Virus record (IMG/VR): IMGVR_UViG_3300020404_002605
Span: 1-27,255 of that record
Reading direction: 5' to 3' (one strand)
Length of the DNA: 27,255 bases
Origin: a virus
A program made the translations under genes and the position numbers. The notes beneath the pieces were generated by a model. It ran no database searches. It saw only the letters and a program-made list of their open reading frames with translations, and was not told the DNA's origin. This document shows, one piece after another, positions 401 to 25,573 of this stretch. Each line of letters starts with the position of its first letter. The stretch's first letter is position 1.

Positions 401-432
401 TTTGGAATTGTAAAATAATTTTCGTATATTTG
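401..432 (+). promoter_or_regulatory. Host-type (Bacteroidota) promoter upstream of the cytidylyltransferase gene
   Basis: TTTG at 401-404, 20 bases, then TATATTTG at 425-432. This fits the published Bacteroidota primary-sigma consensus TTTG-N19-21-TAnnTTTG. The 12-mer TTTCGTATATTT (420-431) is repeated exactly at 2305-2316 and 25561-25572. It lies in the short gap between metK and the next gene, whose start codon is at 451. Confidence 0.78.
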
Positions 433-2285: not shown

Positions 2286-2317
2286 CTTGTTTATATCAAA
2301 TTTTTTTCGTATATTTA
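2286..2317 (+). promoter_or_regulatory. Host-type (Bacteroidota) promoter upstream of the lysozyme-like/gp55 operon
   Basis: CTTG at 2286-2289, 20 bases, then TATATTTA at 2310-2317, within the shared 12-mer TTTCGTATATTT (2305-2316). Spacing is identical to the promoters at 401 and 25542. The last base of the -7 box is A, not G. The next start codon is at 2343, preceded by AGGGG. Confidence 0.75.
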
Positions 2318-6202: not shown

Positions 6203-6231
6203 AAACCTCACCGTAAAAAGTGAGGTTTTTT
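6203..6231 (+). terminator. Rho-independent terminator after the membrane-protein gene
   Basis: AAACCTCAC (6203-6211) pairs with GTGAGGTTT (6220-6228) around the loop CGTAAAAA, followed by TTT. The late promoter motif follows 8 bases later, so this separates two transcription units. Confidence 0.87.
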
Positions 6232-6238
6232 CGTTTAC

Positions 6239-6249
6239 TATATTTATAT
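6239..6249 (+). promoter_or_regulatory. Putative late promoter (TATATTTATAT) before the baseplate module
   Basis: First of five exact copies of TATATTTATAT in the window. It lies 20 bases before the ATG at 6270 and just after a terminator. No TTG box is found near the -33 position, unlike the host-type promoters. It probably drives the cluster from 6270 onward. Confidence 0.72.
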
Positions 6250-6269
6250 ACAACTAATATGGTATAATC

Positions 6270-6683
6270 ATGAGTACAAATTTTGAATTATTTCCTGGTA
6301 AGAATCTAAGTGGATTGTTTAAAAACATCTATGATAATCAGCAAAACAAGAAACAGAAGATTTCAGAACTAATTGCTGAAATGAAGAAAGTAATTAGACA
6401 TTCTGGTGATATGGCAGTGATTGGTCCAATCATAAAAGATTTAGTTGATACTTCAGTTAGAAACGATGAATCATTACTTAAGATGGCAGCTATTGCACAA
6501 AGAATGGTGGCATCAAAAGAAAAAGTAGATGGTGATACAGGATTCCTTAGTGATAAGGAGAAAGAACAACTTCTTCAACAATTAGAAGATACTGCGTTTG
6601 AAATAACAAATGAAAAAGAAAAAATTGAGGATTTAACTAACGAAGTTGAAGAATTAAAACAGAAGGTAGATACCGATGAGTAG
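6270..6683 (+). CDS. Hypothetical coiled-coil protein (137 aa), first gene of the baseplate cluster
   Basis: Not recognised by family. The N-terminal part (NFELFPGKNLSGLFKNIYDNQQNKKQKISELIAEM) and the middle (DMAVIGPIIKDLVDTSVRNDESLLKMAAIAQRMV) look helical and globular. Residues about 95-134 form a clear acidic coiled coil (LLQQLEDTAFEITNEKEKI, then EVEELKQKV). There is no signal or membrane segment. The first gene after the late promoter motif, it overlaps the gp5-like gene by 8 bases, so the two products are probably made together. The place suggests a baseplate or tail-assembly factor, but that rests on neighbourhood only. Confidence 0.72.
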   Translation: MSTNFELFPGKNLSGLFKNIYDNQQNKKQKISELIAEMKKVIRHSGDMAVIGPIIKDLVDTSVRNDESLLKMAAIAQRMVASKEKVDGDTGFLSDKEKEQLLQQLEDTAFEITNEKEKIEDLTNEVEELKQKVDTDE

Positions 6684-7914
6684 AAGGATACTTGCACAAT
6701 CAATAAACCGAAACAGACGAAGTGAGAATAAAAACATCGGACTTGGTTTGGTAATGGATATAATCTTAGATGAAAGTTCTGAGGCAATAAGTGATATAAT
6801 AGATGCTGGAGAAGACCAAACAGATAGAAACTTCAGTATGATTGGTTCTGCTAAAATAAGAAAACTAAATGATATCTCTACAAAAACAGAATCTTTAATA
6901 TATTATCAACCATATGATTATTCTTTTTTAGATTTACCAATTAAAGGAGAAATAGTAGAACTTGTAGAATCCGATACAGGTAGTGTATATTACAGAAGAC
7001 TTATTTCAGCAAACTTAAATACTGGTAATGCTAAAGTAAATGCACAATCAAGATATTTTAACGAAGATGAAGCTGGAAGTGGAAACAGTAAAAATTATTC
7101 ACAAACTTCTCAAACAGGAACTACAAGAAAAGAAAATAAAAGTTCAACTGATAATGCAGACTTCGGAGAATATTTTTCAAAAGAAAAAATAAATCATTTA
7201 AAATTATACGAGGGTGATAAAGTAATACAAAGTAGATTTGGACAATCAATTCGTTTTAGTGGATATAATAATACAGATAATGCATTTGCTCCTAGTATTG
7301 TAATACGAAATAGACAAGGAAGTAAATCTCTAAATGATTTAAAGATTGGAGATATTGTTGAAGAAAACTTTGTTGATGATGGTTCGATTATCGCTTTAAC
7401 TAGTCCAGATAAATTAATAAACTTCACACCAGGTACAGTTGATACACCATTAGAAACAGAACCAATATATGCAGAAGAACCTGAACTAAAGGGAACAGAC
7501 CAAGCACTAATTAATAGTGGTAGAATAATACTATCATCAAAAGATTCCGAAATGTTATTTTACTCAAAGGGAAATTACTCTTTTATATCAGATGGTAAAC
7601 TTACAATAGATAATGGATTAGATGGTGCTGAAATGGATTTCAATGGGGATGTATTAGTTACTACTAACGATAATGATGTAAAAATACTAGCAGGTGCAGG
7701 TGAAATATATCTTAACACAGAAGAAAATACAGAACCTTTAGTAAGAGGACAGGTTTTAGTTGATTTAATGGGTGACCTAATTGATGCAATAAATGCACAA
7801 GTGTTTTCAACACCAGCTGGACCAACTGCACCAGGACCAAACAATAGAGGTGATTTTAATAAAATAAAATCTAAGTTAGAAACATTCTTATCAACTCTTA
7901 ACTATACGGAGTAA
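6676..7914 (+). CDS. gp5-like baseplate hub/spike protein without a lysozyme domain
   Basis: Probable central baseplate (tail spike/hub) component. The N-terminal basic stretch leads into beta-rich segments at about 84-112 (DLPIKGEIVELVESDTGSVY) and 176-250 (LKLYEGDKVIQSRFGQSIRF). These look like the OB-fold of gp5-type spike proteins, interrupted by a low-complexity Ser/Asn/Thr loop at about 130-162. Residues about 275-355 are repetitive short strands (SGRIILSSKDSEMLFYSK, SFISDGKLTIDN, MDFNGDVLVTTNDNDVKI), as in a beta-helical needle. A Pro-rich linker and a C-terminal helix end the protein. The muramidase domain that sits in the middle of T4 gp5 is not seen; peptidoglycan cleavage may instead fall to the protein at 2343. 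Its neighbours gp25 and gp6 support a baseplate role. The gp5 assignment is by pattern, not proven homology. Confidence 0.62.
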   Translation: MSRRILAQSINRNRRSENKNIGLGLVMDIILDESSEAISDIIDAGEDQTDRNFSMIGSAKIRKLNDISTKTESLIYYQPYDYSFLDLPIKGEIVELVESDTGSVYYRRLISANLNTGNAKVNAQSRYFNEDEAGSGNSKNYSQTSQTGTTRKENKSSTDNADFGEYFSKEKINHLKLYEGDKVIQSRFGQSIRFSGYNNTDNAFAPSIVIRNRQGSKSLNDLKIGDIVEENFVDDGSIIALTSPDKLINFTPGTVDTPLETEPIYAEEPELKGTDQALINSGRIILSSKDSEMLFYSKGNYSFISDGKLTIDNGLDGAEMDFNGDVLVTTNDNDVKILAGAGEIYLNTEENTEPLVRGQVLVDLMGDLIDAINAQVFSTPAGPTAPGPNNRGDFNKIKSKLETFLSTLNYTE

Positions 7915-7917
7915 TAT

Positions 7918-8766
7918 ATGTCTTTCAAGATATTCAAACAAAATATGTTATCTTTCATGCAGAGAGAAACTACTGTACAAGTATCTTCAACTAAACTTGG
8001 TGTACCGGCATGGAGACCAGATTTACGATATTACAATGGTGATATTGTAAACGATAGTGGTACTGATTGGAAAGCTACAACTAAAACTCATATCTCTACA
8101 CCAGATAATGATATAGAAACAGGTAAACCATCAGTTAACAGTACTACATGGCAAGCAGTTGCTGGACTTGTAATTGACCCTTTAAATCCAACTTCTCCAA
8201 CATCTGACCAGATTACACGAGAAAATAAAACTGTAAAAATATCTAATGAAGTAGATTCATATGATGATTTTGCAAAAAAACTAACTAGTGAATATGATAA
8301 TTGTATTAAAAGAGGATTTCAACAACCTGGTATATTTGGTAAAGTACCTTTACAAGTAGGTAATACTGATTTAATGGAAACTCTTTTAAAATTAGCGTGT
8401 GTAAAGGCTCTAAATATAAAGGAAGGTAATCATGCATTTATAGATGATATTGGAGAGGCAGTTGTAAAAGGATATTGGGTAGGTGCAGAATTATCAAAAT
8501 CAATTCCACCATTAGCTACTACACCACCTGCGTTTCTAAATATTTCAACAACAACTGCACCAATAAGTAATGCTGGTGTATGGAAACCGATAGGTCCAAC
8601 TCCACCACTTGATGATGCCGAGGTTTTTTTAGATTTATTAATACCATCAATGCAAGTACATCTTACAACTATTGCAGGAACTTATATTTTAGAGTCATTA
8701 TATCCTGGTGTTCCTGTTTCTAAAAACCCATCAATATTACCATTTACAGGATATTCAGTTCCATAA
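7918..8766 (+). CDS. Structural protein with a CBM5/12-like carbohydrate-binding insert
   Basis: Probable baseplate-associated structural protein (282 aa). Residues about 31-81 have the spacing of aromatic and glycine residues found in carbohydrate-binding modules of families 5/12: W32, YYNGDIV (38-44), GTDWKA (48-53), P71 and W78. The rest reads as a conserved phage core: DSYDDFAKKLTSEYDNCIKRG, then IFGKVPLQVGNTDLMETLLK, a glycine/alanine-rich helix (GEAVVKGYWVGAELSKSIPP), proline-rich loops and a final segment (PSMQVHLTTIAGTYILESLYPG). It starts 3 bases after the gp5-like gene with GGAG in the gap region, and the late promoter at 8785 follows it. The core appears to be a tail/baseplate protein with the module inserted near the N-terminus. 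The sugar-binding role is inferred from the residue pattern only. Confidence 0.6.
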   Translation: MSFKIFKQNMLSFMQRETTVQVSSTKLGVPAWRPDLRYYNGDIVNDSGTDWKATTKTHISTPDNDIETGKPSVNSTTWQAVAGLVIDPLNPTSPTSDQITRENKTVKISNEVDSYDDFAKKLTSEYDNCIKRGFQQPGIFGKVPLQVGNTDLMETLLKLACVKALNIKEGNHAFIDDIGEAVVKGYWVGAELSKSIPPLATTPPAFLNISTTTAPISNAGVWKPIGPTPPLDDAEVFLDLLIPSMQVHLTTIAGTYILESLYPGVPVSKNPSILPFTGYSVP

Positions 8767-8784
8767 CCATAAAATTAAAGAACA

Positions 8785-8795
8785 TATATTTATAT
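8785..8795 (+). promoter_or_regulatory. Putative late promoter (TATATTTATAT) before the gene at 8816
   Basis: Exact copy of the 11-base motif, 20 bases before the ATG at 8816, in the 49-base gap after 8766. The same 20-base distance is seen at 6239. No TTG box is present near -33. Confidence 0.7.
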
Positions 8796-8815
8796 TAAGA
8801 TAAACAGATTTCAAA

Positions 8816-9400
8816 ATGAACAACAAACAATTAATAAAAGTAATAAAGACACTTGTAGAGGCCGAGGTTGCCAAAAAACAAGCACAATTTTTATCTAAAA
8901 CATTTCCTAAGATTTTAGATGAAGAAGTCAAGAAACGATTAGCAGAGGTGAAGGGAGGTGTAGTCAGCGTTCCCTCTACGCAAGTTCCACAATTAACGAA
9001 TGAGGTAGACCCATTTGAACAAGCAGAACTTGCATTACAGGAACAAAGACAGACACCGAAAAAACAATTCACTAAGAATGCTGTTATCAATGAAGTTTTG
9101 AATAATACAAAACCATTTACAAAAGAACAAAGAAGTGCAACACCAGGTGGTGGAGCATCTGTATTAGATAAATTTCAACAACCTGTAAATGAGAGTATGG
9201 ATAAAACAGTTAGTTTTACATCTCAAGGAGCAGGTGCAGGTATTGAAGGTATGAAAGCTCAGATGGCACAAAAGATGGGTTATGGTGAAGTAAGACAACA
9301 ACCAAATAAAACTGGTTTAGGAGTAAAAACAGGATTACCTGGTTTAGATAGAATTTTAAATAGAGATAATTCAGAACTTGTTAAAAAGTTTAAAAGATAA
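8816..9400 (+). CDS. Hypothetical protein upstream of gp25 (194 aa)
   Basis: Not recognised. It is basic and glutamine-rich. The first 45 residues are helical (QLIKVIKTLVEAEVAKKQAQ, then KTFPKILDEEVKKRLAEV), the middle is low complexity, and a Gly/Ala-rich stretch (SQGAGAGIEGMKAQMAQKMGYG) lies near 135-157. The C-terminus is positively charged (NRDNSELVKKFKR). Only a weak ribosome binding site precedes the ATG. It heads a late transcript continuing to gp25 and gp6 and ends 10 bases before gp25, so a tail or baseplate accessory or chaperone role is likely by position only. Confidence 0.68.
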   Translation: MNNKQLIKVIKTLVEAEVAKKQAQFLSKTFPKILDEEVKKRLAEVKGGVVSVPSTQVPQLTNEVDPFEQAELALQEQRQTPKKQFTKNAVINEVLNNTKPFTKEQRSATPGGGASVLDKFQQPVNESMDKTVSFTSQGAGAGIEGMKAQMAQKMGYGEVRQQPNKTGLGVKTGLPGLDRILNRDNSELVKKFKR

Positions 9401-9410
9401 GGAGTAAATT

Positions 9411-9842
9411 GTGGCATATATTCTTGATAAAAAAGTAGTAAAAGATACTGAAGAGTTTAACGACTTTGCATATGGTATTACTTTACCTGTACAACGAGGT
9501 GAAACAGGAATGTTTGCACAAGCATTTTCATCATTTGAACAAGCAAAATCAAATTTAAAGAATTTGTTATTAACTTCAAAAGGTGAAAGAATATTACAAC
9601 CAAATTTTGGTACTGGTTTAAAATCATTATTATTTGAACAGAACACCGATTTATTGGCTGAAAATATAGAAAAGGTAATTACAAGTAGTGTTAAGTTTTG
9701 GTTACCATATATTAATATAGATGAGATTGATGTAAAAATGACCGATGAGATGAAGGATAATAATAGAGCAGATGTATCAGTATCGTTTACAGTAGGTAAT
9801 CAAATAGATTTACAAGAAATAACATTTACAGTTAGGGGATAA
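9411..9842 (+). CDS. 25: gp25-like baseplate wedge protein
   Basis: Component of the baseplate wedge, of the T4 gp25 / type VI secretion TssE family. At 143 residues it matches T4 gp25 (132). The family pattern is visible: DFAYGITLPVQRGETG, AQAFSSFEQAKSNLKNLLLT, then SKGERILQPNFGTGLKSLLFEQ, the segment around the conserved E-R-x-x-x-P-x-F-G-x-x-L. A beta-rich C-terminus follows (IDVKMTDEMKDNNRADVSVS). The start is GTG at 9411, supported by GGAG 6 bases upstream (9401-9404). In the known assembly gp25 caps wedge gp6 and nucleates sheath polymerisation; gp6 follows 7 bases later. Confidence 0.92.
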   Translation: MAYILDKKVVKDTEEFNDFAYGITLPVQRGETGMFAQAFSSFEQAKSNLKNLLLTSKGERILQPNFGTGLKSLLFEQNTDLLAENIEKVITSSVKFWLPYINIDEIDVKMTDEMKDNNRADVSVSFTVGNQIDLQEITFTVRG

Positions 9843-9849
9843 ATAAGAT

Positions 9850-11862
9850 ATGGCATTAAATAGTGTAACAAGAAAGAGTAATCAAGGTAGAGATATAAAG
9901 TATCTTAATAAAGATTTTTCTGCATTCAGAGAAAATCTAATTGAGTATGCAAAAACATATTTCCCAAAAACATATACTGATTTTAATGAATCTTCTCCTG
10001 GTATGATGTTTATCGAGATGGCATCTTATGTTGGAGATGTTTTATCTTATTATGTAGATGATTCATTAAAAGAATCATTCATGTTATATGCGGAAGATAA
10101 GAAAAACGTATTAGCATTATCAGAATACTTAGGATATAAACCAAAAGTAACTTCACCTGCAATTACTAAATTAGCAGTTTATCAATTAGTACCAAAAATT
10201 GGTAGTGGAGATACAATAAGACCTGATTCAAAATACTACTTAAGAATTAAAGAAGGAATGGTAGTAGAAAGTACTGAAGGAACATCATTCAGAACTACTG
10301 AGTTAGTAGATTTTAATGTAGAGGATGATAGAGAAATAACAGTATATGAAACTGATGGTTTAAATCAACCAACAAAATATCTTGTAAAGAAATTTGTAAA
10401 TGCAATATCAGCTGAATTAAGAACAGTTGATGTATCATTTGGAACACCACAACAGTTTTCAAAAATAGATTTAGCAGAAGATAACATAATTGATATTTAC
10501 GATGTAAGAGATTCAAATGGTAACAGATGGTACAAAGTTCCTTATCTTGCACAAGAAATGGTTTATGTTGATTATGCAACATCAGAACAAACTGATAAGG
10601 ATTTATTACAATTTAAAGATTCAGTTCCTAATATTCTTAAAGTAATTAAAACTTCAAGAAGATTTACTACAAGAATAAATGAAGATAACTCAACAACTAT
10701 TGTATTTGGTGGAGGAAATCAAACCAATGATGAAACACTAATTCCTAATTTTAAAAATGTAGGATTGGGATTAAACAACTCAATAGATAGATTGGGTGCA
10801 TCATTTGACCCATCTAATTTCTTAAAAACAAAATCATATGGACAAGCACCATCTAACACAACACTAACAGTAAGTTACTTAGTAGGTGGAGGTGTTGCAT
10901 CAAATGTTAAATCAGGAACTATTACTAGAATAGATAGTATAGAGTTTGATGAAGATACATCATTCTTTACAACTGCTGAACAATCAGCATATAGAGAAGT
11001 TCAAAATTCAGTAGCGTGTGATAACGAAGAACCAGCAACTGGTGGAAAGGGTGCAGATACGATTGAAGAGATTAGAGAAAATGCACTAGCAAACTTTGGT
11101 TCACAAAACAGAGCGGTAACAAGAAAAGATTATCAAGTAAGAGCATTATCATTACCTCCTAAGTTCGGTGGAATAGCAAAAGCATATTGTTCACCAGATG
11201 GTGAGTTAGATTTAAATTCACCTGCTTCTATTTTATCAAGTCAAGATTCTTTAGAAGAATTTACAAGTTTAGTTCAAAGTTTAAGAGATAAAGATTTAAC
11301 AGAACAACAAGTTAAAGATGAAGTAACTAAGTTTCTTGCAAATAAGAAAAGTTCAGTTAGTGAAAAAAATAATCCATTTGCAATTAACTTATATGTACTT
11401 GGATATAATTCAAATAAAAACTTAACTACATTAAACAGAGCAGTAAAAGAAAATCTAAAAACATATTTAAGTGAATATAGATTACTTACAGATGGTGTTA
11501 ATATTATAAATGGATTTATTATAAACGTTGGAGTTGATTTTGAGATAAGAGTATATGGTGGATATAATAAAAGACAAGTATTAACAAGAGTAACTTCAGA
11601 ACTTAAAAATTATTTTAATACAGATAATTGGACATTTAATATGCCAATTAATATTTCTGAAGTTGAGTTATTAATTGCAGGTGTTGAGGGAGTTCAATCA
11701 GTACCAAAATGTGAAATCATTAACAAATGTTTAGGAAACTATTCTTCGAATTCATATAATATATCAGATGCAACTAAAGGTAAAATGGTTTATCCATCTT
11801 TAGACCCATCTGTATTTGAAGTTAAGTTTCCAAATAAAGATATAAGAGGGAGAGTAGTATAA
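9850..11862 (+). CDS. 6: gp6-like baseplate wedge protein
   Basis: Large baseplate wedge subunit that forms the ring linking wedges in T4-type tails. At 670 residues it is close to T4 gp6 (660). The typical opening is present: YLNKDFSAFRENLIEYAKTY, then FPKTYTDFNESSPGMMFIEM and SYVGDVLSYYVDDSLKE. The central J-like region has ETLIPNF and GGGNQTNDET, then GKGADTIEEIRENALANFGSQNRAV with TRKDYQVRAL, the strongly conserved baseplate J/gp6 segment near residues 395-430. The C-terminus contains INISEVELLIAGVEGVQSV. Its stop codon overlaps the next ATG (TAATG at 11860), indicating coupled translation. Family call is firm. Confidence 0.93.
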   Translation: MALNSVTRKSNQGRDIKYLNKDFSAFRENLIEYAKTYFPKTYTDFNESSPGMMFIEMASYVGDVLSYYVDDSLKESFMLYAEDKKNVLALSEYLGYKPKVTSPAITKLAVYQLVPKIGSGDTIRPDSKYYLRIKEGMVVESTEGTSFRTTELVDFNVEDDREITVYETDGLNQPTKYLVKKFVNAISAELRTVDVSFGTPQQFSKIDLAEDNIIDIYDVRDSNGNRWYKVPYLAQEMVYVDYATSEQTDKDLLQFKDSVPNILKVIKTSRRFTTRINEDNSTTIVFGGGNQTNDETLIPNFKNVGLGLNNSIDRLGASFDPSNFLKTKSYGQAPSNTTLTVSYLVGGGVASNVKSGTITRIDSIEFDEDTSFFTTAEQSAYREVQNSVACDNEEPATGGKGADTIEEIRENALANFGSQNRAVTRKDYQVRALSLPPKFGGIAKAYCSPDGELDLNSPASILSSQDSLEEFTSLVQSLRDKDLTEQQVKDEVTKFLANKKSSVSEKNNPFAINLYVLGYNSNKNLTTLNRAVKENLKTYLSEYRLLTDGVNIINGFIINVGVDFEIRVYGGYNKRQVLTRVTSELKNYFNTDNWTFNMPINISEVELLIAGVEGVQSVPKCEIINKCLGNYSSNSYNISDATKGKMVYPSLDPSVFEVKFPNKDIRGRVV

Positions 11863-12920
11863 TGTTTTATTTCGTAACCGCATCAAAGGATGCAAGTATA
11901 TATTTACAACAACCAAAACAAAATACTGGTTTTGATGAGATACTAGAAGTATCTAAAGTTTACTATGGTAATCTTAAAGATACTGCTCGTTCATTAATCA
12001 AGTTTGAAACAACACCACTTTCACAATCTATTGCTAGTGGAGAAGTTACAATGAGTTTGGCAACAATGATTATTAGACAATGTGAGGCAAACGAAATACC
12101 AACTGATTATACGATATATGCATATCCAGTTTCTCAATCATGGGATATGGGAATCGGTACAAGATTCGATGAGATATCAACAGATGGATGTACTTGGGAA
12201 TCAAGAAAAACAAGTGTTAGTTGGTTAAATGGTTCAGCATCTTTAGAAAGTTCTGGTTCATTTAATGGTAAAGGAGGAATGTGGTTCACTGGTTCATTTG
12301 CATCTCAATCATATAGTTATGAAACTGCTGATATTGAAATGGATGTAACAGTACCTTTTAATAGTTGGATTGGTGGTACACTTGGAAATGAAGGATTCAT
12401 AATAAAACACGATTCATCATTAGAAAATGATACCGTAGATTACGGACAATTAAAATTCTTTAGTAAAGAAACAAATACTATCTATCAACCAAAAGTAAGA
12501 ATAGGTTGGGATGATTCTGTTTTTAATACAGGTTCTCTAACTGCACTTACATCGGATGATATTCATGTAACATTCAAAAGACTAAAAACTAGATATAGAA
12601 GAGGAAGTAAACCTACAATTAGAGTATTTGGTAGAGAAAAATATCCTCTTAAAACCTACACCAACGAATATGCTTATACTGATGTATATTTTTTACCATC
12701 AACAACATATTACCAAATCAAAGATATAATAACAGATGAAATAATAGTTCCATTTAGTGATTACACAAAAGTTAGTTGTGATTCAAATGGTAATTTCTTC
12801 AAATTGAATTTAACAAATTGGGAAATCAATAGAGATTATTTTATTGAAATAAAAGTAGATAGAGATGGTGTAATTGAATATTTTGAAGATAGAGATTTAA
12901 CTTTTACTGTGGAATTATAA
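11862..12920 (+). CDS. Structural protein with DNRLRE-like N-terminal domain
   Basis: Probable baseplate or tail structural protein (352 aa). Residues 1 to about 125 resemble a DNRLRE domain, a beta-sandwich often found on surface or carbohydrate-active proteins: TASKDASIYLQQPKQNTGFD, EILEVSKVYYG, then RSLIKFETTPLSQ, paired hydrophobic strands, a DYTIYAYPVSQSWDMG segment and a later TDGCTWESR. The remainder is also beta-rich, with conserved aromatic residues (VRIGWDDSVFNTG; PTIRVFGREKYPLKTYTNEY). Its ATG overlaps the gp6 stop, and it ends 1 base before the next gene. There is no signal peptide. The DNRLRE similarity is by pattern; the position after gp6 is occupied in many marine T4-like phages by uncharacterised structural proteins. 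Confidence 0.62.
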   Translation: MFYFVTASKDASIYLQQPKQNTGFDEILEVSKVYYGNLKDTARSLIKFETTPLSQSIASGEVTMSLATMIIRQCEANEIPTDYTIYAYPVSQSWDMGIGTRFDEISTDGCTWESRKTSVSWLNGSASLESSGSFNGKGGMWFTGSFASQSYSYETADIEMDVTVPFNSWIGGTLGNEGFIIKHDSSLENDTVDYGQLKFFSKETNTIYQPKVRIGWDDSVFNTGSLTALTSDDIHVTFKRLKTRYRRGSKPTIRVFGREKYPLKTYTNEYAYTDVYFLPSTTYYQIKDIITDEIIVPFSDYTKVSCDSNGNFFKLNLTNWEINRDYFIEIKVDRDGVIEYFEDRDLTFTVEL

Positions 12921-12921
12921 A

Positions 12922-14136: not shown

Positions 14137-14138
14137 TA

Positions 14139-15884: not shown

Positions 15885-18800
15885 TGGCACTAGGAGATAA
15901 ACTAAATAGAAAAGTAAGAGGACTATCTACTGATAAGGCATATACAGATAGTGTCATTGAAAATAATGGCGCAGTAATTGTAAGTGGAGGAACTCCTAGT
16001 GATAATGCACTAATCAATTCTGGTGAAGCGATAGGTACTGTAACTACTACAAGGAGTGGAGAACGAGTTGCTGAAGTTGGACCAAATACTAATCAAACAG
16101 GTTTTTTAGATAGTAGTGGAAATATGACTACTAATATAGAGATAGTAGACCAAAAACCATTAATTGAAGAACTTACATATGAAGCTCCAAGTAATACTAT
16201 TCAAGTTAATATTAAATCAACTCCTATTGGGGGAACTGTTATTGTTGATGGAAGAGATACAAAAACATTAACTAATAAACCAATGATTTTTGGTGGAAAA
16301 GAATTACTTACACCTAGAATAATTGAAGTACAAAAAGGTAAGGCAAAATCAACTGATAAGTACAAAATATATACAGTAAAACAAAACATTATAAAAAATG
16401 TTAAACCAGTACTTCCACTTGAAGTATTTGAACCCATACCAATCGATGAAACTTTTAATATTGAAAGAAGAGGATTTGGGGGAGATTACTTAGGATTTGA
16501 AAAAGCACAACCATTACCAATTCCACAAAGACCACTTACAGTTGGTAGAGTTGGATTTTCATATTATCAATTAAGAGTTGAAAAAAATGGAAAAGAAATA
16601 AATGTTAATAATCAAATTAACGATATAACAGGTACTATAAATAAAGGATTCTCAGTAGATTTAACTTTTAAACTAAAAGATGAAATTGTAATAGACCCAC
16701 CAACACCAAAAGTATATTCAATAGAAATTGAATCTAATATGGTTGATGGTGATATTAAATATATTACATCGTGGGGTGAAGAAGGACTCTTAGAAGATGA
16801 AGGTTTGATAACTTTAAGTAAGAAACCTAATCTTTCCAAAGAACAATGTTATGTTGATTTCAAACCAAATAACATAAGTAATTTAACTCATACAGTAAGT
16901 TACGATATTCAAACCCCAACAACTAAATCAATTAATACAATTAAAGCTCTTGAAACGAGAGTAATATTATCACCTGGTAATACTAAAGTAGAAGTTAATT
17001 CAGTTAAGATACCAAAAGAAGAAATAAATAAACCTACTTTAAATGTTGAAATAGATAATTTAAAATTTAATATATTATCTGATGAAGATACAAAAATTGT
17101 TTATAATACACAAAATACAGATGAGGTTGTTTATACATTAGGAAAAACATCTAGAACATTAAAACCAAATGGAACTATCATTTTAAATAAAAATGATTTC
17201 TATAATGGTGTTGGTAACTATGTAATTTACTTACAACCAAATTCTTCTAAGGCAGGTAGTGGAGATGTAAAAAGAATTAACATAAATGTAGTAAGTAAAG
17301 AATACCTACCTGGTCCAGATATTACTCATATAAACTATCCACAAAACATTGTTGGTGCAGATTTCAAAGGATTCGATGTACCATTTGATGTAAGTTGGCA
17401 ATCTATAAACACTAATTTTGTTTACGTTTATGCAGGAAAATATTCCAAAGATACTAGGTCTAATTTCTTAGGACAGTTTGAACCAAATGGTAAAGCTAAA
17501 TTCAAAGTATCGGATGTTTTAAAAGCAAGTGGAATAAACATTACAGAAAATTCAGATGTAGTACAATTCTCTTTAAACTTAGTTCCTTTTAATATTGAAG
17601 GTAACGAAAGAACAGAAGGTAAAATTGAAGTAATAAATATTACTTTTGATAAAGGAGATTTAACATTAAGAAGAGAAATTGTAATTAATGATATTAAAGA
17701 AAGTTTTAGAAAACAATTTGATAAAAAAATATTTGAAGATGTTTCTCCTTTCCTTACACATTATTTACACTTAGGTGGTGGTAATAATAAACTAATTGCA
17801 ACTTGGGATATTGATAAAAATACATTATCTACATTTAAGTTTGATGAAGAAACAAACGAAAATAAAAAGGTAGAAGAAGTAAAAGCATTAGTTTTAAAAC
17901 TATATGAACCATTACCACAAGATATAAATCTAAACCATAAAACTTGGATATCTAAAATACAATCAATTCCTATAATTGATACAATCACACTTGTAGATGG
18001 TGAAACTGCACAATGTACACCATTAACTCCAAACTTTAACTTAGATGTGGGAGATGATATAGGATATCAAATTCTTGATGATTTGATAGCTAGTGGTTCA
18101 ACAACTTCAACAGATGTTGTTAATGAGTTTATTTCTTCAAGTGAATTTGATTTATCTAAACTTGATATATCATATGTAACAAGTTCTACAACATTAGTAG
18201 AAACAGATAAAGGTACAATAAAACAAGATACAGGAGTACATGATTACAATTGGGCAGGATTTGTAAAATATTCATCTGCAGAAGAAAGAAGTGCAAACTT
18301 TTTATATAAAGTTCAATTAATAGAATCTTATGAAAATAAAATTCTTAGTTTAGATTCTGGTTCAGCAACAACAAGTTCTGTTGCAATCCAAAACGAAAGA
18401 GAAAGAACAGTAACTAAAATAAACAATGTTAAAAAAGGATTTGATTCATTTGAGAAGTTCTTATATACAAGTTCATCACTTAATGATTTAACTTATCCTG
18501 GTGCTGGTCAAAACACATTATCTGCATCAAGTGATTCAACAGTAACAGATTGGTATAGTGGTTTACAATCATCTGCAAGAACCTATGATTATGATAATAA
18601 ATCAAGATTTGTAAATAACTTACCACAACATATACAAGATGATTTCAAAGGAGAAGAGTTTACATTATTCTTTGATATGGTTGGACAACACTTTGACAAT
18701 ATATGGGCTCATATAGAAGGTATTTCTAAATCTAAGAAAACTGAAAACAAATATGATGTAGGTATTGTAAATGATTTAGTTTATCATATGTTAGAATCTC

Positions 18801-21115
18801 TTGGTTGGGATGCTGATATGGGAGTTAAATCTCAACTTCTTTGGGAATATGCATTTGGTAAACACTCTGATGGAACAGTTGTTGCTAACATGAGTGGTAA
18901 GGATAGACAATCTGAAATATGGAGAAGAATACTAAATAACTTACCATATCTTAATAAACATAAAGGTACAAAAAGAGCTCTTCATGCTGCTTTAAGTATA
19001 TATGGTATTCCACAATCACTTTTAACTGTGATGGAGTTTGGTGGACCAAAAGACCCAAGTAAAGAAGGAACTACTAAGTTCTCATTTGAAGATAGAACTG
19101 CGGCTATTAGTTTAGTTAGTGGAAGTTTCATTTCAATTCCTTGGAAAAAATATAATAGTAGTTTTTCAAATGAGTATCCTAACTCAGTAGAACTTACAGT
19201 AAATACAGACCAAAAACAAGACCAACAAATAATATCTGCAAGTAACTGGTCAGTAGATATTATAAACACTAGTACAGGTTCATTAGGACAAATACAACTT
19301 ACAGTAGGAGCACAATCTGCATCTACAAATCCAATGCCTATATTCAATGATGAATATACTCAGATAGTTGTAAATAGAGTTAGTGGAAGTACAACAGATG
19401 AATTTGAAATATTTGTAAAAGAAGCATTTCAAGGAAGAATTAGAAATAGTGTAAGTGCTTCTTTATCAGCAACAACAAAAGCATGGACAAGTGGTAGTGA
19501 GTTCCATGTAGGACAAACACTAACAGGTTCAGTTGATGAAATTAGATTATGGAGAACTGCATTAGATGAGAACAAAATTGATAATCATACTTTATTACCT
19601 GATGCAATAGATGGTAATCATATATCTGCATCAACTACTGATTTAATATTTAGAAATGATTTTGAATATCCAAAGAATAGAGGAACTGATGTAGAGATTA
19701 AAAACGTTGCATTAACAACTTCATACGCAACTTTTTCAACTGCATCAAACTTTGAAAATATATCAGATTATCCATATAATTATATCCCATATGATAGAGA
19801 TGTAACTGCAGATGTACCTGCAAGTGGATTCAATGTTGGTAATAAAATTAGATTTGAAACTCAAACTGTAATATCAGATTTAACTTACAGAAGTAGAGCA
19901 ACTAAAAAATCATTTGATAATGCACCGATTGATTCAAATAGGTTAGGATTATTTTTCTCACCAATTAAAGAAATCAACATGGATATATTAAAATCACTTG
20001 GTGGGTTCGATATAGGAAATTATATTGGTAATCCTGCAGATGATTTTTCTCCTGAATATGGTGAATTAAAAACATTAAGAAATTATTACTTTGATAGATA
20101 TTCATTAAATATAAATGAGTATATTCAATTAGTTAGATATATAGATAAATCATTATTTGATGTATTAGAATCATTAGCACCAGCGAGAGCTAAAGTATCT
20201 AGTGGTTTATTAATAGAACCACATATTCTTGAAAGAAGTAAGATTGAACAAAAACCAACTGTTGCAACTAAACACAATTATCAATCTAAAATAGATACTC
20301 AAGAAGATATTGAAATTAACTTTTCTAATAAAGGAATAGAAGGATTTGTAACTGCATCTCAAGAAATTAGTTTAGCTGGTACAAAAGATAATTATGTAAC
20401 AATAGTAACTGCATCTGATAATCATGTTCTAAGTGGAGATAAAATTGATTATCTTGGAATAATTACACAATCCGATGATGTTGTTACAACAGGTGAAATT
20501 ACAACAAACTCTGGTTCTAACATGGGAGGTATAAGTATTACTGTTGATGCATCGTTTACCGGTTCAGTACAAGGACAATTTGATTCAACCGCTTACCAAC
20601 AAATAGGAATGGGACCAGAATCACTAACACAAGCTGGATTCGGATTGTATGGTATAAATGGTACTGCTATAAGAACAAGATTAGATAAAAGTAATAATTT
20701 TGTAAAAGAAAGAGTTAAGGTATATTTATTAAAAGAACAGTTTACTGAAGATGTACCACAAAATATTGATGAAAATGATTCATCATTAGGTACAGAATTG
20801 GTTTCAACAACAAAACACAGATTTAAAGTAAATATTTTACCATTTACTGGTTCTGATGGAAATGAAACTAGTTCATCTGTTGCAGGTAATATCGTAGAGG
20901 TTACTGCACTAGATGGTTATTTCCCAACACATTATGTAAATGTTGGTGATTTAACAAGTGGAATGGAGAATTCGTTCTTCAAGGGTTCAAAACAAACAAG
21001 TGCTACTACTTTAGATGGTGGTTCACCTGTTCAAACGTTTACTACTAATCCAAATACGTTAAGAGTTTCGGATGCAGGTAGAGGTAGTGGAGAGCCAATT
21101 TTAGAAGTAGATTAA
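15884..21115 (+). CDS. Giant baseplate/tail structural protein (1743 aa), P2 gpI-like and LamG-like domains
   Basis: The largest gene of the window. The N-terminal approx. 300 residues are Gly/Thr-rich, with a PEGA-like stretch near 105-160 (TPIGGTVIVDGRDTKTLTNK). A long beta-rich, Ig-like region runs to about 660. Residues about 885-1060 resemble tail proteins of the P2 gpI type: EEFTLFFDMVGQHFDNIWAH, then SEIWRRILNNLPYLNKHKGT, KRALHAALSIYGIPQ and VMEFGG. Residues about 1070-1245 look like a laminin-G/concanavalin-like jelly roll (AAISLVSGSFISIPW ... GSVDEIRLWRTALDENKI). The last 500 residues are Ser/Thr-rich with a C-terminal acidic end. It probably forms the outer baseplate or the place where fibres attach, comparable in position to wedge gp7/gp10 of T4. 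Its ATG overlaps the preceding stop codon. Domain calls are by pattern. Confidence 0.68.
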   Translation: MALGDKLNRKVRGLSTDKAYTDSVIENNGAVIVSGGTPSDNALINSGEAIGTVTTTRSGERVAEVGPNTNQTGFLDSSGNMTTNIEIVDQKPLIEELTYEAPSNTIQVNIKSTPIGGTVIVDGRDTKTLTNKPMIFGGKELLTPRIIEVQKGKAKSTDKYKIYTVKQNIIKNVKPVLPLEVFEPIPIDETFNIERRGFGGDYLGFEKAQPLPIPQRPLTVGRVGFSYYQLRVEKNGKEINVNNQINDITGTINKGFSVDLTFKLKDEIVIDPPTPKVYSIEIESNMVDGDIKYITSWGEEGLLEDEGLITLSKKPNLSKEQCYVDFKPNNISNLTHTVSYDIQTPTTKSINTIKALETRVILSPGNTKVEVNSVKIPKEEINKPTLNVEIDNLKFNILSDEDTKIVYNTQNTDEVVYTLGKTSRTLKPNGTIILNKNDFYNGVGNYVIYLQPNSSKAGSGDVKRININVVSKEYLPGPDITHINYPQNIVGADFKGFDVPFDVSWQSINTNFVYVYAGKYSKDTRSNFLGQFEPNGKAKFKVSDVLKASGINITENSDVVQFSLNLVPFNIEGNERTEGKIEVINITFDKGDLTLRREIVINDIKESFRKQFDKKIFEDVSPFLTHYLHLGGGNNKLIATWDIDKNTLSTFKFDEETNENKKVEEVKALVLKLYEPLPQDINLNHKTWISKIQSIPIIDTITLVDGETAQCTPLTPNFNLDVGDDIGYQILDDLIASGSTTSTDVVNEFISSSEFDLSKLDISYVTSSTTLVETDKGTIKQDTGVHDYNWAGFVKYSSAEERSANFLYKVQLIESYENKILSLDSGSATTSSVAIQNERERTVTKINNVKKGFDSFEKFLYTSSSLNDLTYPGAGQNTLSASSDSTVTDWYSGLQSSARTYDYDNKSRFVNNLPQHIQDDFKGEEFTLFFDMVGQHFDNIWAHIEGISKSKKTENKYDVGIVNDLVYHMLESLGWDADMGVKSQLLWEYAFGKHSDGTVVANMSGKDRQSEIWRRILNNLPYLNKHKGTKRALHAALSIYGIPQSLLTVMEFGGPKDPSKEGTTKFSFEDRTAAISLVSGSFISIPWKKYNSSFSNEYPNSVELTVNTDQKQDQQIISASNWSVDIINTSTGSLGQIQLTVGAQSASTNPMPIFNDEYTQIVVNRVSGSTTDEFEIFVKEAFQGRIRNSVSASLSATTKAWTSGSEFHVGQTLTGSVDEIRLWRTALDENKIDNHTLLPDAIDGNHISASTTDLIFRNDFEYPKNRGTDVEIKNVALTTSYATFSTASNFENISDYPYNYIPYDRDVTADVPASGFNVGNKIRFETQTVISDLTYRSRATKKSFDNAPIDSNRLGLFFSPIKEINMDILKSLGGFDIGNYIGNPADDFSPEYGELKTLRNYYFDRYSLNINEYIQLVRYIDKSLFDVLESLAPARAKVSSGLLIEPHILERSKIEQKPTVATKHNYQSKIDTQEDIEINFSNKGIEGFVTASQEISLAGTKDNYVTIVTASDNHVLSGDKIDYLGIITQSDDVVTTGEITTNSGSNMGGISITVDASFTGSVQGQFDSTAYQQIGMGPESLTQAGFGLYGINGTAIRTRLDKSNNFVKERVKVYLLKEQFTEDVPQNIDENDSSLGTELVSTTKHRFKVNILPFTGSDGNETSSSVAGNIVEVTALDGYFPTHYVNVGDLTSGMENSFFKGSKQTSATTLDGGSPVQTFTTNPNTLRVSDAGRGSGEPILEVD

Positions 21116-21152
21116 GAAAAAACAGTATAATTATTTAATTTTATAAAATACT

Positions 21153-21163
21153 TATATTTATAT
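21153..21163 (+). promoter_or_regulatory. Putative late promoter (TATATTTATAT) before the gene at 21190
   Basis: Exact 11-base motif, 26 bases upstream of the ATG at 21190, which itself has AAGGA upstream. It lies in the 74-base gap after the giant gene. No TTG box is seen near -33. A 12-bp palindrome ATTTTATAAAAT sits just upstream (21138-21149). Confidence 0.7.
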
Positions 21164-21189
21164 ATTGAATAACAACAAGGAAAGAAACT

Positions 21190-21819
21190 ATGGCTTATTT
21201 AAATAACACAGAAATTACAGTAGATGCTATCTTGACCAAAAAGGGTAGAGAGAAGTTAGCATCTGGTGAAGGTTTAAATATCTCAAAATTCGCACTAGGT
21301 GATGATGAGGTAGATTACACACTTTACGAACCAGCACATCCAAAGGGAAGTGCATTTTATGATGCGGCAATTAAAGCAATTCCAATCACAGAAGCATCTC
21401 CAGATGAAACACAAGTATTAAAATATAAATTGGTAACATTACCAAAAGGAACTACTAAAATTCCAAAAGTAGAATTTGGTATTCCATCTATCTCTGTTAA
21501 TCAGAACTCAGGTCAAGTTCAACTTTCCCCTACTACTTCACCAAGTGGTAATACACAGAGTGGATATACTGTTATTCTTTCTAACAAAAACGCAGGTTCT
21601 ATTGTTGGAAGTGGATTATCGGCTGGAGCAAGTTCAACTCCATCATTCTTGGGTGATGAGATAACTGCAACTGCTGCAATTGAAACTGGATTAGAATTTA
21701 CATTTATTCCAAATCCAAATATAACTGCAACGATTCAAACAACTATTACAGTATATGGTAACGAGACTGGTGGTTCACAAACCGTTCCTGTAACTGTTAC
21801 TTATGTACAACCAAGTTAA
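21190..21819 (+). CDS. Conserved-looking structural protein (209 aa)
   Basis: Not assigned to a named family. It opens with AYLNNTEITVDAILTKKGRE and KLASGEGLNISKFALGDDEV, a start that from memory recurs in marine T4-like phage structural proteins of unknown role. Residues about 100-209 are beta-rich and Ser/Thr/Gly-rich (VILSNKNAGSIVGSGLSAG; ITVYGNETGGSQTVPVTVTY), like an Ig or surface-decoration domain. There is no signal peptide. A late promoter motif and an AAGGA ribosome binding site precede it, and the next gene follows 18 bases later behind AAAAAGGA. Probably a virion component; the sequence does not allow a finer call. Confidence 0.68.
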   Translation: MAYLNNTEITVDAILTKKGREKLASGEGLNISKFALGDDEVDYTLYEPAHPKGSAFYDAAIKAIPITEASPDETQVLKYKLVTLPKGTTKIPKVEFGIPSISVNQNSGQVQLSPTTSPSGNTQSGYTVILSNKNAGSIVGSGLSAGASSTPSFLGDEITATAAIETGLEFTFIPNPNITATIQTTITVYGNETGGSQTVPVTVTYVQPS

Positions 21820-21837
21820 TAAAAAGGAAAAAATAAA

Positions 21838-23040
21838 ATGGCAAATATAACAGGACAAGCAGGAGTAAATTTAACATCAGAGTTAGCAGCTTACTTAGAT
21901 GCTAACCAAGGTAACCTAACTTCTGAACAATTATCACAGATAATAAATCAGTATTTGACTGGTGGTGATAAATTAGGTGCAACTGGTGGACAGATATCTA
22001 CTGGTATTTACAAAAGATTTGGTGAGTTTGACCAAGTGACTGGTAAAGTAGAAGTAGTTACAACTGGTTTGTGGAGTGGTGATACAGGAAGTTTAACTAC
22101 ATTCTTTACATCATCTGCTCAATCAGCTGCAAGTAAAAACTATTACTATGATGTATATCAAACTGCAGACTTATCCTCAGTACAATTTGCATTAGCATAT
22201 GGACACAAATTTGGTAGTGGTTCAGTATCATTAGATAATGATGATACATCAACACTAGCAACTAAAGCAACTTATGCTCAATATAAAAACTTACTTCTTG
22301 ACCAAGGAGATGAAAAATTCTTATTTGCATCTTCATCAGGAGCAACATTTTCTTCAGATGATGTTTACATTGTAAATTTATCTCGTGCAAGATATAAAGA
22401 AAAAATGGATGCTGGAAACTGGTCATTAAAGATTAGTGGTTCAAAATCACAAGCAGTATTAATTGATGATAGTGGAAAGAAATTCTCAGATACAGTTGGA
22501 AAAGCTGGTAGAGTATTCGATGTAGTAAGTGGTTCATTAAACTTAGGAACAGAAGCAGAAGCAACAATCGGTGGAAGATATGATTTAAATGGTAGAGGAT
22601 TTGGTAAATTCTTCCCTGACCAAGGTATTATAGTTCTTAATCCAGCAGCGTTATCCGAACAATTTGGTTTAACAACGACAGGTGGAGATTTAAGTGGTTC
22701 AAATTCAATTACAGTTGAAGGACAAAATCACAAACACTTATGGAATGGTATTAAAGGTGGAGCGGATTTCCAAGCAAGAAGAACAGAGAATGTTTCTACA
22801 TCTCATTACTTCGTTAGAGCTACTAACAGAGAATTTAACTTCTCTAACAATCCAACTTACACGACTGGTTCAGATGGTTCATTTGCAGAATCAACATTCG
22901 AAAGAGACCCAAAATCATTTATAACAACAATTGGATTATTTAGTGATTCAAATGAAATGATTGCGGTGGCTAAAACATCACAACCAATCCCTAAATCATT
23001 TGATAAAGAAGTATTAATCAAAGTAAAACTTGACTTTTAA
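21838..23040 (+). CDS. Virion structural protein, paralog of the next gene (C-terminal domain shared)
   Basis: A 400-residue Ser/Gly/Thr-rich protein without signal peptide. The N-terminal region is helical (ANITGQAGVNLTSELAAYLD); the middle (about 90-300) is beta-rich with VYIVNLSRARYKEKMDAGNW. The last 70 residues include EFNFSNNPTY, SFITTIGLFSDSNEMIAVAK, QPIPKSFDKEVLIKVKLDF. The protein at 23153 has the same ending in the same order, so the two are paralogs. From general knowledge this ending recurs in structural proteins of marine T4-like phages, but no named T4 counterpart is recognised. It is followed by a strong terminator, and the late promoter upstream at 21153 probably reads through both it and its neighbour. 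Confidence 0.72.
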   Translation: MANITGQAGVNLTSELAAYLDANQGNLTSEQLSQIINQYLTGGDKLGATGGQISTGIYKRFGEFDQVTGKVEVVTTGLWSGDTGSLTTFFTSSAQSAASKNYYYDVYQTADLSSVQFALAYGHKFGSGSVSLDNDDTSTLATKATYAQYKNLLLDQGDEKFLFASSSGATFSSDDVYIVNLSRARYKEKMDAGNWSLKISGSKSQAVLIDDSGKKFSDTVGKAGRVFDVVSGSLNLGTEAEATIGGRYDLNGRGFGKFFPDQGIIVLNPAALSEQFGLTTTGGDLSGSNSITVEGQNHKHLWNGIKGGADFQARRTENVSTSHYFVRATNREFNFSNNPTYTTGSDGSFAESTFERDPKSFITTIGLFSDSNEMIAVAKTSQPIPKSFDKEVLIKVKLDF

Positions 23041-23052
23041 ATAGACAGAATT

Positions 23053-23070
23053 TTACGGTTGCAAACGTAA
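23053..23070 (+). other. Short hairpin upstream of the terminator at 23084
   Basis: TTACG (23053-23057) pairs with CGTAA (23066-23070) around the loop GTTGCAAA. Weak on its own; it lies 13 bases after the structural-protein stop codon. Confidence 0.3.
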
Positions 23071-23083
23071 CGTTCACAAGAAT

Positions 23084-23120
23084 AACCCCACCATCGGCCG
23101 ATGTACGAGTGGGGTTTTTT
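23084..23120 (+). terminator. Rho-independent terminator between the paralogous structural genes
   Basis: AACCCCAC (23084-23091) pairs with GTGGGGTT (23109-23116), followed by TTTT and G. The loop contains the perfect 12-bp palindrome CATCGGCCGATG (23092-23103), which would lengthen or fork the structure. The block is strikingly GC-rich for this genome. A late promoter motif starts 7 bases after the terminator. Confidence 0.88.
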
Positions 23121-23127
23121 GTTTTAT

Positions 23128-23138
23128 TATATTTATAT
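23128..23138 (+). promoter_or_regulatory. Putative late promoter (TATATTTATAT) before the gene at 23153
   Basis: Exact 11-base motif, 14 bases before the ATG at 23153 and directly downstream of a terminator. A transcript start here would leave a very short leader. The ribosome site AGAGGA begins right after the motif. No TTG box near -33. Confidence 0.72.
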
Positions 23139-23152
23139 AGAGGAATTATACT

Positions 23153-24322
23153 ATGTTAAAAACAATCCAAAAATCAAACATCTCTAGAAGAAGCTTTAAG
23201 GTATTTAAAGATTTCGAAATTACGAGTGGAAATGATGCAGAAGATATTAATGTAATATCAGCTTCACTAGCATCAGCTTTATTTGATTCTGGTTCTTCTT
23301 CATTTATATCAGCATCAAATCAACCACAATTATTTACTGAACCTCTTTACGATTCAATAAAAAGTAAATATTATATTAATGATGGTAATCCATTAAATCT
23401 CTTTGGACTAGTTGGAGATATCGGTAATATAAAAAGTGAAAGAAATATTGCAGATACAATTTTTATTATAAAAATTCCACAAGCAAAATATGGTGAAGGA
23501 ATTAAACCTGGTTCTGTAACAGTAGTTGATAATACAAATAGTACAACTTTTACAGATAGTGGAGATGGAGGTATGCGTGCAGGTAATTCAACTTATACTC
23601 TTCTATCTATAAACTTTGATTCAGGTGATATATCACTACAAGATAGAGATTTACAAATATTTAATGGAACAATAACCAATTTCAATGCAGAAACTGGTTT
23701 AGGTAGTATGACATTTCAAGGTCAAACTAATACAGTTTCTATTGTAAAAATAGATTTACCAAACTCAACTCTTGAAACATCAGTTAAATTAGATACTCTT
23801 TTTCCTGGTGTAGATATAGATGAAGCATTGACTGGAAATGTATTTTATTCCGATGGATTAATAGTATTTACTGGTGTAACTAATTTTCATGAATATACTT
23901 TAACATACAAATCAACAAAAACAATTTACGAAACTGAAATATTTGTAAATGCAAAAGCAGGTGAATTTAATTATTCACAAAACCCATCAGCAGTAGAAGT
24001 TGAAATTAGTGGTTCTTATGATTTCGAAACAACTTCTATATTTAACGATGAACCTGGTGGAACTAAAAAAATTACAGTAATAGACGATATTAGAAGAAAA
24101 CCTGCAATATCAGGTTCATTCAATACATCAATAAGTGGTTCTTGGGATGATTATGAAGCATCTGCTTCAATAGACCCAACAGGTTCTTATTTAGCTCCAT
24201 ATATAACAACTATTGGGTTATATGATAAGACAGGAGAAATGGTTGCAGTTGCAAAATTACCTAAACCAATAAAGAATTTACCTGATTACGATGTAAACTT
24301 TATTATTCGTTTAGATACTTAA
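23153..24322 (+). CDS. Virion structural protein, paralog of the preceding gene
   Basis: A 389-residue protein. It has an N-terminal basic/helical start (LKTIQKSNISRRSFKVFKDF), a beta-rich Ser/Thr/Gly middle (SGSWDDYEASASIDPTGSYL; DRDLQIFNGTITNFNAETG), and a C-terminal segment with GEFNYSQNPSAV, PYITTIGLYDKTGEMVAVAK, LPKPIKNLPDYDV and IIRLD. That segment is colinear with the end of the 400-residue protein upstream, while the N-terminal halves look unrelated. This suggests a shared attachment or assembly domain with different exposed parts. It is transcribed from its own late promoter, behind a terminator, so its expression can be set separately from the paralog. No transmembrane helix or signal peptide is seen. 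Confidence 0.72.
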   Translation: MLKTIQKSNISRRSFKVFKDFEITSGNDAEDINVISASLASALFDSGSSSFISASNQPQLFTEPLYDSIKSKYYINDGNPLNLFGLVGDIGNIKSERNIADTIFIIKIPQAKYGEGIKPGSVTVVDNTNSTTFTDSGDGGMRAGNSTYTLLSINFDSGDISLQDRDLQIFNGTITNFNAETGLGSMTFQGQTNTVSIVKIDLPNSTLETSVKLDTLFPGVDIDEALTGNVFYSDGLIVFTGVTNFHEYTLTYKSTKTIYETEIFVNAKAGEFNYSQNPSAVEVEISGSYDFETTSIFNDEPGGTKKITVIDDIRRKPAISGSFNTSISGSWDDYEASASIDPTGSYLAPYITTIGLYDKTGEMVAVAKLPKPIKNLPDYDVNFIIRLDT

Positions 24323-24324
24323 TC

Positions 24325-24335
24325 TATATTTATAT
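24325..24335 (+). promoter_or_regulatory. Putative late promoter (TATATTTATAT) before the gene at 24357
   Basis: Exact 11-base motif starting 3 bases after the preceding stop codon and 21 bases before the ATG at 24357, which has AAAGGAG upstream. No TTG box near -33. It would also transcribe the sulfotransferase and GIY-YIG-like genes. Confidence 0.72.
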
Positions 24336-24356
24336 AATACAAAGGAGATAGAAACT

Positions 24357-25560: not shown

Positions 25561-25573
25561 TTTCGTATATTTG
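25542..25573 (+). promoter_or_regulatory. Host-type (Bacteroidota) promoter upstream of primase
   Basis: CTTG at 25542-25545, 20 bases, then TATATTTG at 25566-25573, with the shared 12-mer TTTCGTATATTT (25561-25572). It overlaps the end of the GIY-YIG-like gene and leads into the primase ATG at 25593, leaving only about 20 bases after the -7 box. This separates replication genes from the late cluster. Confidence 0.78.

Follow-up and report, generated by a model that had tools for sequence, protein, structure and literature searches.

The sequence element considered here is an 8 bp core, TATTTATA, that lies within an 11-base motif, TATATTTATAT, ahead of five genes in a virus DNA of 27,255 bases (IMG/VR record IMGVR_UViG_3300020404_002605); the window referred to below is the whole of this record. 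The core, usually within TATATTTATAT in the window's clade, is probably the late promoter of a T4-related lineage of phages that probably infect Bacteroidota, and would be read by a gp55-like sigma factor without a -33 element. It is found on the sense strand between genes, immediately ahead of late operons, it is conserved while the bases around it and its distance to the start codon vary, and it is distinct from a class of host-type promoters present in the same genomes.

Distribution of the motif in the window

Five exact copies of TATATTTATAT are present in the window, at positions 6239, 8785, 21153, 23128 and 24325, all of them intergenic and on the plus strand; there are no copies on the minus strand. 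The first-pass annotation had placed them 14–26 bases before an ATG, and the distances from motif end to ATG are indeed 20, 20, 26, 14 and 21 nucleotides (nt) respectively, using open reading frames (ORFs) from a simple longest-ORF script in which start codons can be misplaced. Dinucleotide shuffles of the window (n = 100) contain a mean of 0.33 copies and a maximum of 2, and with up to one mismatch allowed there are 17 matches in the window compared with 6.44 expected. The core itself occurs five times on the plus strand, always at one of these late-type sites, and twice on the minus strand (16636 and 25622), both inside genes. None of the five boxes has a TTG near -33, in agreement with the earlier description, and the sole TTG within 45 nt upstream of any of them is at the 23128 box, with a spacer of 6.

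The first box (6239..6249, core 6241–6248) precedes an operon at 6270–8766, and by analogy with T4 spacing transcription would start near 6254. The second (8785..8795, core 8787–8794) precedes the operon at 8816–21115, which includes matches to baseplate wedge proteins, gp25-like for gene 9411 and gp6-like for gene 9850. The others precede gene 21190 (21153..21163, core 21155–21162), gene 23153 (23128..23138, core 23130–23137) and gene 24357 (24325..24335, core 24327–24334). All five are on the plus strand. The prior description of these as structural-module genes is fair for the operons, but for the five first genes themselves no confident family was obtained. We note that a sulfotransferase-like gene (PHROG 3347; 24549–25124) adjoins the tail genes.

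Conservation of the core in related phages

Relatives of the gp6-like protein or of the putative sigma are encoded in very many IMG/VR contigs (at least 80 loci among those listed), and a gp6-like relative is encoded in at least 598 candidate stretches. Three named records also encode relatives of both proteins: Flavobacterium phage immuto (38.6% identity for the gp6-like protein and 37.4% for the sigma), ‘Microcystis’ phage Mel-JY01 (42.1% and 37.4%) and LR756508 (40.8% and 46.3%). Because of the host of immuto, and the host-type promoters in these genomes described below, the lineage probably infects Bacteroidota.

The 11-mer is present in all 24 of the longer relatives, with 145 copies on the majority strand and six on the other (summed per record). 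Loci L014–L172, which partly overlap one another, contain 199 copies. Of these, 177 lie between genes in the sense orientation, mostly 14–27 nt ahead of a start codon, even though only 4.3% of the bases are intergenic. Copies in coding sequence or on the opposite strand, which the first-pass annotation had named as an argument against a promoter if frequent, account for the other 22 (16 sense inside ORFs, five antisense intergenic and one antisense in an ORF). The motif recurs along whole genomes, as might a signal for replication, packaging or RNA cutting that has nothing to do with gene starts; its sense orientation, intergenic placement and start-codon distance are too regular for this, and such a role is scarcely credible.

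We compared the regions upstream of orthologous genes in 128 related records, which also provided the terminator and promoter-class counts; the window was added in the flank, base-frequency and promoter-class sets, and loci L260–L338 were left out of the ortholog table, the base frequencies and the flank and terminator counts. The core is present within 70 nt upstream of 246 of the 258 orthologs of the five box genes (88/90 for 6270, 108/109 for 8816, 27/33 for 21190, 13/14 for 23153 and 10/12 for 24357), whereas for 21 other window genes this is true of a single ortholog among 1031. A twenty-second, gene 3974, has the core upstream of 26 of its 64 orthologs; this carbamoyltransferase-family gene (3974–5686; Pfam PF02543, PF16861) is directly after the sigma gene, and the window copy has no late core.

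These orthologs are related by descent, and the argument is one of contrast between core and flanks rather than of the count. The base preceding the core is identical in every sampled ortholog pair for all five genes, whereas among core-bearing orthologs the flanks agree at only 44–69% of positions upstream and 56–78% downstream, and the core-to-ATG spacing varies (e.g. 17–28 nt for gene 8816). At 172 non-redundant sites, the base before TATTTATA is A in 98%, but at the two outermost positions of the 11-mer T is found in only 63% (first) and 66% (last), and the core shows one to three further biased flanking bases. The 11-mer thus stands as five exact copies in the window and not as an invariant unit, the conserved unit being TATTTATA after an A. 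Because the preceding base is invariant while the flanks and spacing vary, these comparisons indicate that about nine bases, ATATTTATA, are under selection in the window clade; in immuto, the base before the core is A or C. A reversed-pattern control is useless for this motif, which is its own mirror image.

The T4 late box is TATAAATA, which, as had been pointed out, is contained in the other strand of the motif, and which we recovered upstream of genes in a 50 kb piece of T4 (11 sense-upstream sites compared with 0.6 expected), counting 8-mers within 60 nt before starts. The same count supports the earlier statement that the box in the coding direction is not that of T4: TATTTATA is sense-upstream of 9–26 genes per contig in 14 contigs and TATAAATA of 0–4, with 0.5–2.3 expected for each. 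The corresponding numbers are 21 and 6 for immuto (1.6 expected), and 11 and 2 for Mel-JY01 (2.0 expected). Among the other T4-related phages, 50 kb of S-PM2 yields ATAAATAA and AATAAATA (7 compared with 0.3 expected each), and neither TATTTATA nor TATAAATA was recovered by this count in HTVC008M. In loci L260–L338, the core is upstream of an ORF in 49 of 79, and there are five TATAAATA sites in the sense direction. A core is missing from many of the more distant loci in this set, partly because they contain few late genes.

Terminators and gene position

With few exceptions, the box precedes genes that head a run. Two of the window copies were said to directly follow terminators, and both do: terminator-like hairpins with a T-run at 6206..6231 and 23086..23120 (both plus strand) each end 7 nt before a box, at 6239 and 23128 respectively. 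Similar structures are present in 70 of 84 and 13 of 13 of the core-bearing orthologous gaps at these two genes, and are rare before the core at the other three (3/107, 2/27 and 3/10).

The complete genome of immuto extends this to genes of recognizable function, as the core precedes the terminase, portal, sheath, tube, hub and tape-measure genes. It is present at 15 of 60 ORFs in the structural regions compared with 6 of 151 elsewhere (Fisher p = 2e-5), and the TTG-type host pattern has the opposite trend, at 3 of 60 compared with 26 of 151 (p = 0.025), with the caveat that in both comparisons the regions were picked after viewing the annotation and the site list.

The fairly narrow distance between box and start codon in the window clade would also suit a role in translation, in which an A/T-rich stretch of the leader would help ribosomes to initiate on late mRNAs; Bacteroidota are reported to lack Shine-Dalgarno sequences and to tune initiation through the bases upstream of the start codon (PMC6847099). 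However, many of the 21 genes whose 1031 orthologs have a single core among them are operon-internal, the distance from core to start spans 4–40 nt both between and within clades, and the terminators leave no other obvious promoter space at two of the genes. The base pattern described for Flavobacterium johnsoniae in that report is also close to the start codon, with A at -3. We regard a translation signal as very unlikely.

A separate class of host-type promoters

Three promoters of another type are present in the window, all on the plus strand and all with a TTG 20 nt ahead of the box. Two have the form TTG-N20-TATATTTG, one at 402..432 before gene 451 and one at 25543..25573 before the primase gene 25593; the third, TTG-N20-TATATTTA at 2287..2317, precedes gene 2343, the first gene in the run that includes the sigma. 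A looser host pattern is found upstream of 19/32, 14/16 and 20/36 of their respective orthologs, and the late core is at none of the 16 orthologs of the primase gene and none of the 36 of gene 2343. The looser pattern is also seen at 5/109 orthologs of 8816, 3/12 of 24357 and 1/33 of 21190; at these sites, it and the late box overlap.

Across the clade, the two classes are separated by their upstream sequences. A TTG at spacer 20 accompanies 25 of 33 TATATTTG upstream sites compared with 4 of 136 late-type TATATTTA[TA] sites, and a CG ahead of the box is present at 21 of 33 and 1 of 136 respectively. The late-type class shows no TTG peak at any spacer, the commonest being 25 (9/136). The late box in the window clade differs from the host-type TATATTTG at the eighth base, with A for G (the A following from the definition of the core), although this base does not separate the classes everywhere, because the immuto host-type box, TATATTTAGG after TTG-N20, also has A there. 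In immuto, it is the TTG and the bases following the box, not the eighth base, that mark the promoter class.

One alternative explanation is that the host primary sigma itself uses the late box, as a variant host-type promoter that has no -33 element and whose -7 box ends in A instead of G. TATATTTATAT does include TAHHTTT, the host-type boxes of immuto are TATATTTAGG with TTG at spacer 20, and the -33 element is reported to be weakly defined in F. johnsoniae (PMC6847099). The division into two classes by TTG-N20 and CG, the invariant TA downstream within the core, and the concurrence of the late genes with a phage sigma make this unlikely, if somewhat less so than a translation signal. With the late box as the promoter for a phage sigma, the arrangement fits a cascade from host sigma to phage sigma, because the host-type promoter at 2287 serves the sigma's gene run and the sigma gene (3206) itself has no late box; the late core is upstream of none of its 68 orthologs.

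Two other observations concern the host-type class. In immuto, the segment at 60.9–76.3 kb (L007, ~10900–26300) contains about twenty host-type promoters of the form TTG-N20-TATATTTAGGTAT, many then followed by CAATAATTAAA, before small genes, and is likely an early promoter array. In Mel-JY01 (PP395634, L010–L013), TTG is at spacer 20 in all four TATATTTG upstream sites, which is the Bacteroidota promoter form; this phage groups with the clade by its gp55-like and gp6-like proteins, and its Microcystis host label looks doubtful.

A predicted gp55-like sigma

The putative sigma is encoded at 3206..3973 on the plus strand. Its product is 255 amino acids, compared with 185 in T4, and its relatives are 229–266 amino acids (66 representatives). 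Searches of Pfam, PHROG and PDB with this sequence gave no family. An AlphaFold2 model (predicted local distance difference test score, pLDDT, 73; predicted template modelling score, pTM, 0.42) predicts a region-2-like N-terminal part, an extra C-terminal helical domain (residues ~130–226) and a short tail. In structure comparison, the best compact match is T4 gp55 (7d7c chain F; Z 10.0, 3.7 Å over 110 residues), and nearly all other listed matches are sigma factors by title; the top-ranked entry, with a root-mean-square deviation of 16.9 Å, is one of three integrative models that combine RNA polymerase and ribosomal proteins.

In T4 gp55, Y97 is described as taking A-12 and T99 as taking A-8, with N13 and H95 taking A-9 (PMC7892883). 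Alignment by hhalign and a multiple alignment agree on the register, with T4 Y97, T99 and N13 corresponding to Y93, T95 and G14. Among 156 clade proteins, the Y97 equivalent is Y in all 156 and the T99 equivalent is T in 138 and S in 18; the N13 equivalent, which is N in T4, S-PM2 and HTVC008M, is G in 124, T in 31 and S in one. If the box occupies -13 to -6 as in T4, A-12 and A-8 would be kept, and the replacement of A-9 by T would parallel the loss of the Asn, although this is a correlation only.

The C-terminal domain modelled separately (pLDDT 76.5, pTM 0.68) is helical and helix-turn-helix-like with no clear relative. It has no Pfam family, the PDB sequence search led nowhere, and the fold matches are weak, helix-turn-helix- or signal recognition particle-like (Z ≤5.3), with neither gp33 nor a sigma-4 domain among the 50 listed. 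Many of the clade sigmas end in a conserved tail similar to NPYLDNEYL after a variable linker, possibly a partner-binding peptide, and immuto and others have no such tail. We also considered a clamp-binding tail shared with the DNA polymerase PolB, but the PolB C-terminal tails (in Mel-JY01 and G001) are unlike that of the sigma.

In T4, late transcription also involves the coactivator gp33 and activation by the sliding clamp gp45. The gp33 model PF16805 matches T4, S-PM2 and HTVC008M (3/3) and none of 24 other records, including the complete-genome records of immuto, Mel-JY01 and Rhodothermus phage RM378, noting that many of the others are fragments and that divergence could hide a gp33. The clamp model PF02916 is uninformative, as it also missed S-PM2 and HTVC008M. 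The clamp-loader PHROG 168 was examined in 12 non-reference records; matches are strong in seven (G001, G025–G028, Mel-JY01 and LR756508), weak in G029 and G030, and absent from immuto, RM378 and G002. No natural fused late sigma had been found by 2010, and why none exists was raised as a question (PMC2988020). Given the lack of a gp33 match and the additional domain at the C terminus of the sigma, it is conceivable, albeit doubtful, that this is a one-piece late sigma, in which a gp55-like region 2 would be joined to a C-terminal domain that replaces gp33 on the polymerase flap, and which would read the recoded box TAT-TT-ATA, with A-9 changed to T along with the Asn loss and with clamp-free late transcription in immuto and RM378.

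Comparison with known promoters

The T4 late promoter (gp55, gp33, gp45) is similarly described as an 8 bp A/T box in the -10 region with no -35 element (PMC2988020, PMC7892883). Further similarities are the A/T-rich DNA just downstream, the late virion genes served and a small sigma with a region-2-like predicted fold that matches gp55. The differences are that the clade box is TATTTATA and not TATAAATA, the latter being near expectation on the sense strand in the clade, that there is no gp33 match in any of the 24 non-reference records, and that the clade sigma has the extra C-terminal domain. The late boxes of T4 relatives are reported to be highly similar, and for the T4-related phages of other hosts covered there (KVP40, 44RR, S-PM2 and Aeh1) the box is known to vary between lineages (in Aeh1, a/gC for TA at -13/-12; PMC2988020). 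Variation of the box is a feature in common with the present clade, but theirs, as described, is at the upstream edge, whereas here the central pair is altered.

The Bacteroidota primary-sigma promoter is described as having TTTG at -33 and TANNTTTG at -7 (PMC6847099). It has TATATTT in common with the late box, and host-type copies coexist in these genomes; the late box differs in lacking a TTG at spacer 20, in carrying A instead of G as its eighth base and in the conserved TA that follows this base. The first-pass annotation had proposed a late promoter that evolved from this -7 element and is read by a gp55-like sigma. The analysis supports a class of promoter-like sites that precede late genes, have no upstream box, differ from the host-type sites and occur in phages with a gp55-like sigma, but an origin of this class in the host -7 element is not settled. 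The 11-mer is one base from the TATATTTG-TAT that follows TTG in the same window (402 and 25543), and this origin, as opposed to one from a T4-type late box, is possible but not favoured. The clade-wide core matches the T4 box in length (8 bp) and in its outer TAT..ATA, the two differing only by TT for AA at the centre; in immuto, the core is preceded by A or C rather than TA; and the predicted fold of the sigma resembles T4 gp55. Moreover, the T that matches the host -12 position is only 63% T here, and is nearly invariant in F. johnsoniae as reported (PMC6847099).

Rhodothermus phage RM378 (L254, L256, L257) has a sense-strand box, TTATTTAA(A), that likewise contains TATTTA, and TTATTTAA is before 26 of 142 ORFs (both strands) compared with 1.1 expected. 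It differs in its 3′ end and in being usually 5–8 nt before the ATG. We do not include RM378 in the clade, as its sigma (PHROG 1740) does not align with that of the window. Often there are 5 nt between TATTTAAA and the ATG in this phage, and T4 spacing would give leaderless mRNAs. Among the open-licence papers listed, none names this box or any late promoter for phages of this kind.

Several observations weigh against a late promoter read by a gp55-like sigma. In immuto, an exact core is present within 55 nt of only 16 of 37 inspected late-region starts; of the 21 without, four have TATTTATT. The major capsid gene is among those without an exact core, and six ORFs outside the structural regions carry one. 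LR756508, which has the nearest gp55-like protein in a named record (46% over 79%), has the core in none of 57 upstream regions in 50 kb (80001–130000, L255), and its 484 kb contains 7 + 3 copies of ATATTTATA. The T4 50 kb piece itself holds six upstream TATTTATA (0.6 expected), several at back-to-back TATAAATA boxes. The assignment of the sigma is also open to doubt, in that a Z of about 10 can arise by chance among helical proteins, Foldseek alone gave no match with E <0.001 (E 2.6), the gp55 family PHROG 234 matches the sigma in none of 11 non-T4 records, and T4 gp55 is matched only weakly by hhalign (probability 4%, E 0.0098). An explanation through a single residue (H95 to F) was dropped, since S-PM2 and HTVC008M share this change and no single residue accounts for the altered bases.

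Set against the conservation, placement and class separation described above, these points leave a late promoter as the probable function, and we infer the following sequence of events. Host RNA polymerase with the phage gp55-like sigma would melt the box without the help of a -33 element and begin transcription about 6 nt further downstream, which corresponds to leaders of 10–22 nt in the window. The operon encoding the sigma would be served by a host-type promoter, TTG-N20-TATATTT[G/A], so that the order would be host sigma, phage sigma and then late genes. The box would correspond to the 8 bp late box of T4 with TT in place of AA at the centre, i.e. TAT-TT-ATA for TAT-AA-ATA; in the T4 register, A-12 and A-8, which enter the two deep pockets of gp55, would be kept, and A-10 and A-9 changed.

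Late transcription in T4 is the textbook example of a phage sigma coupled to replication. The very large uncultured group described here retains that layout but has a different central pair in the box and apparently no gp33. These phages offer a natural test of how gp55 reads DNA, and likely an orthogonal promoter-sigma pair. The box provides a marker of late operons in uncultured, probably Bacteroidota, phages, and the isolated relative, Flavobacterium phage immuto, makes this reading directly testable.

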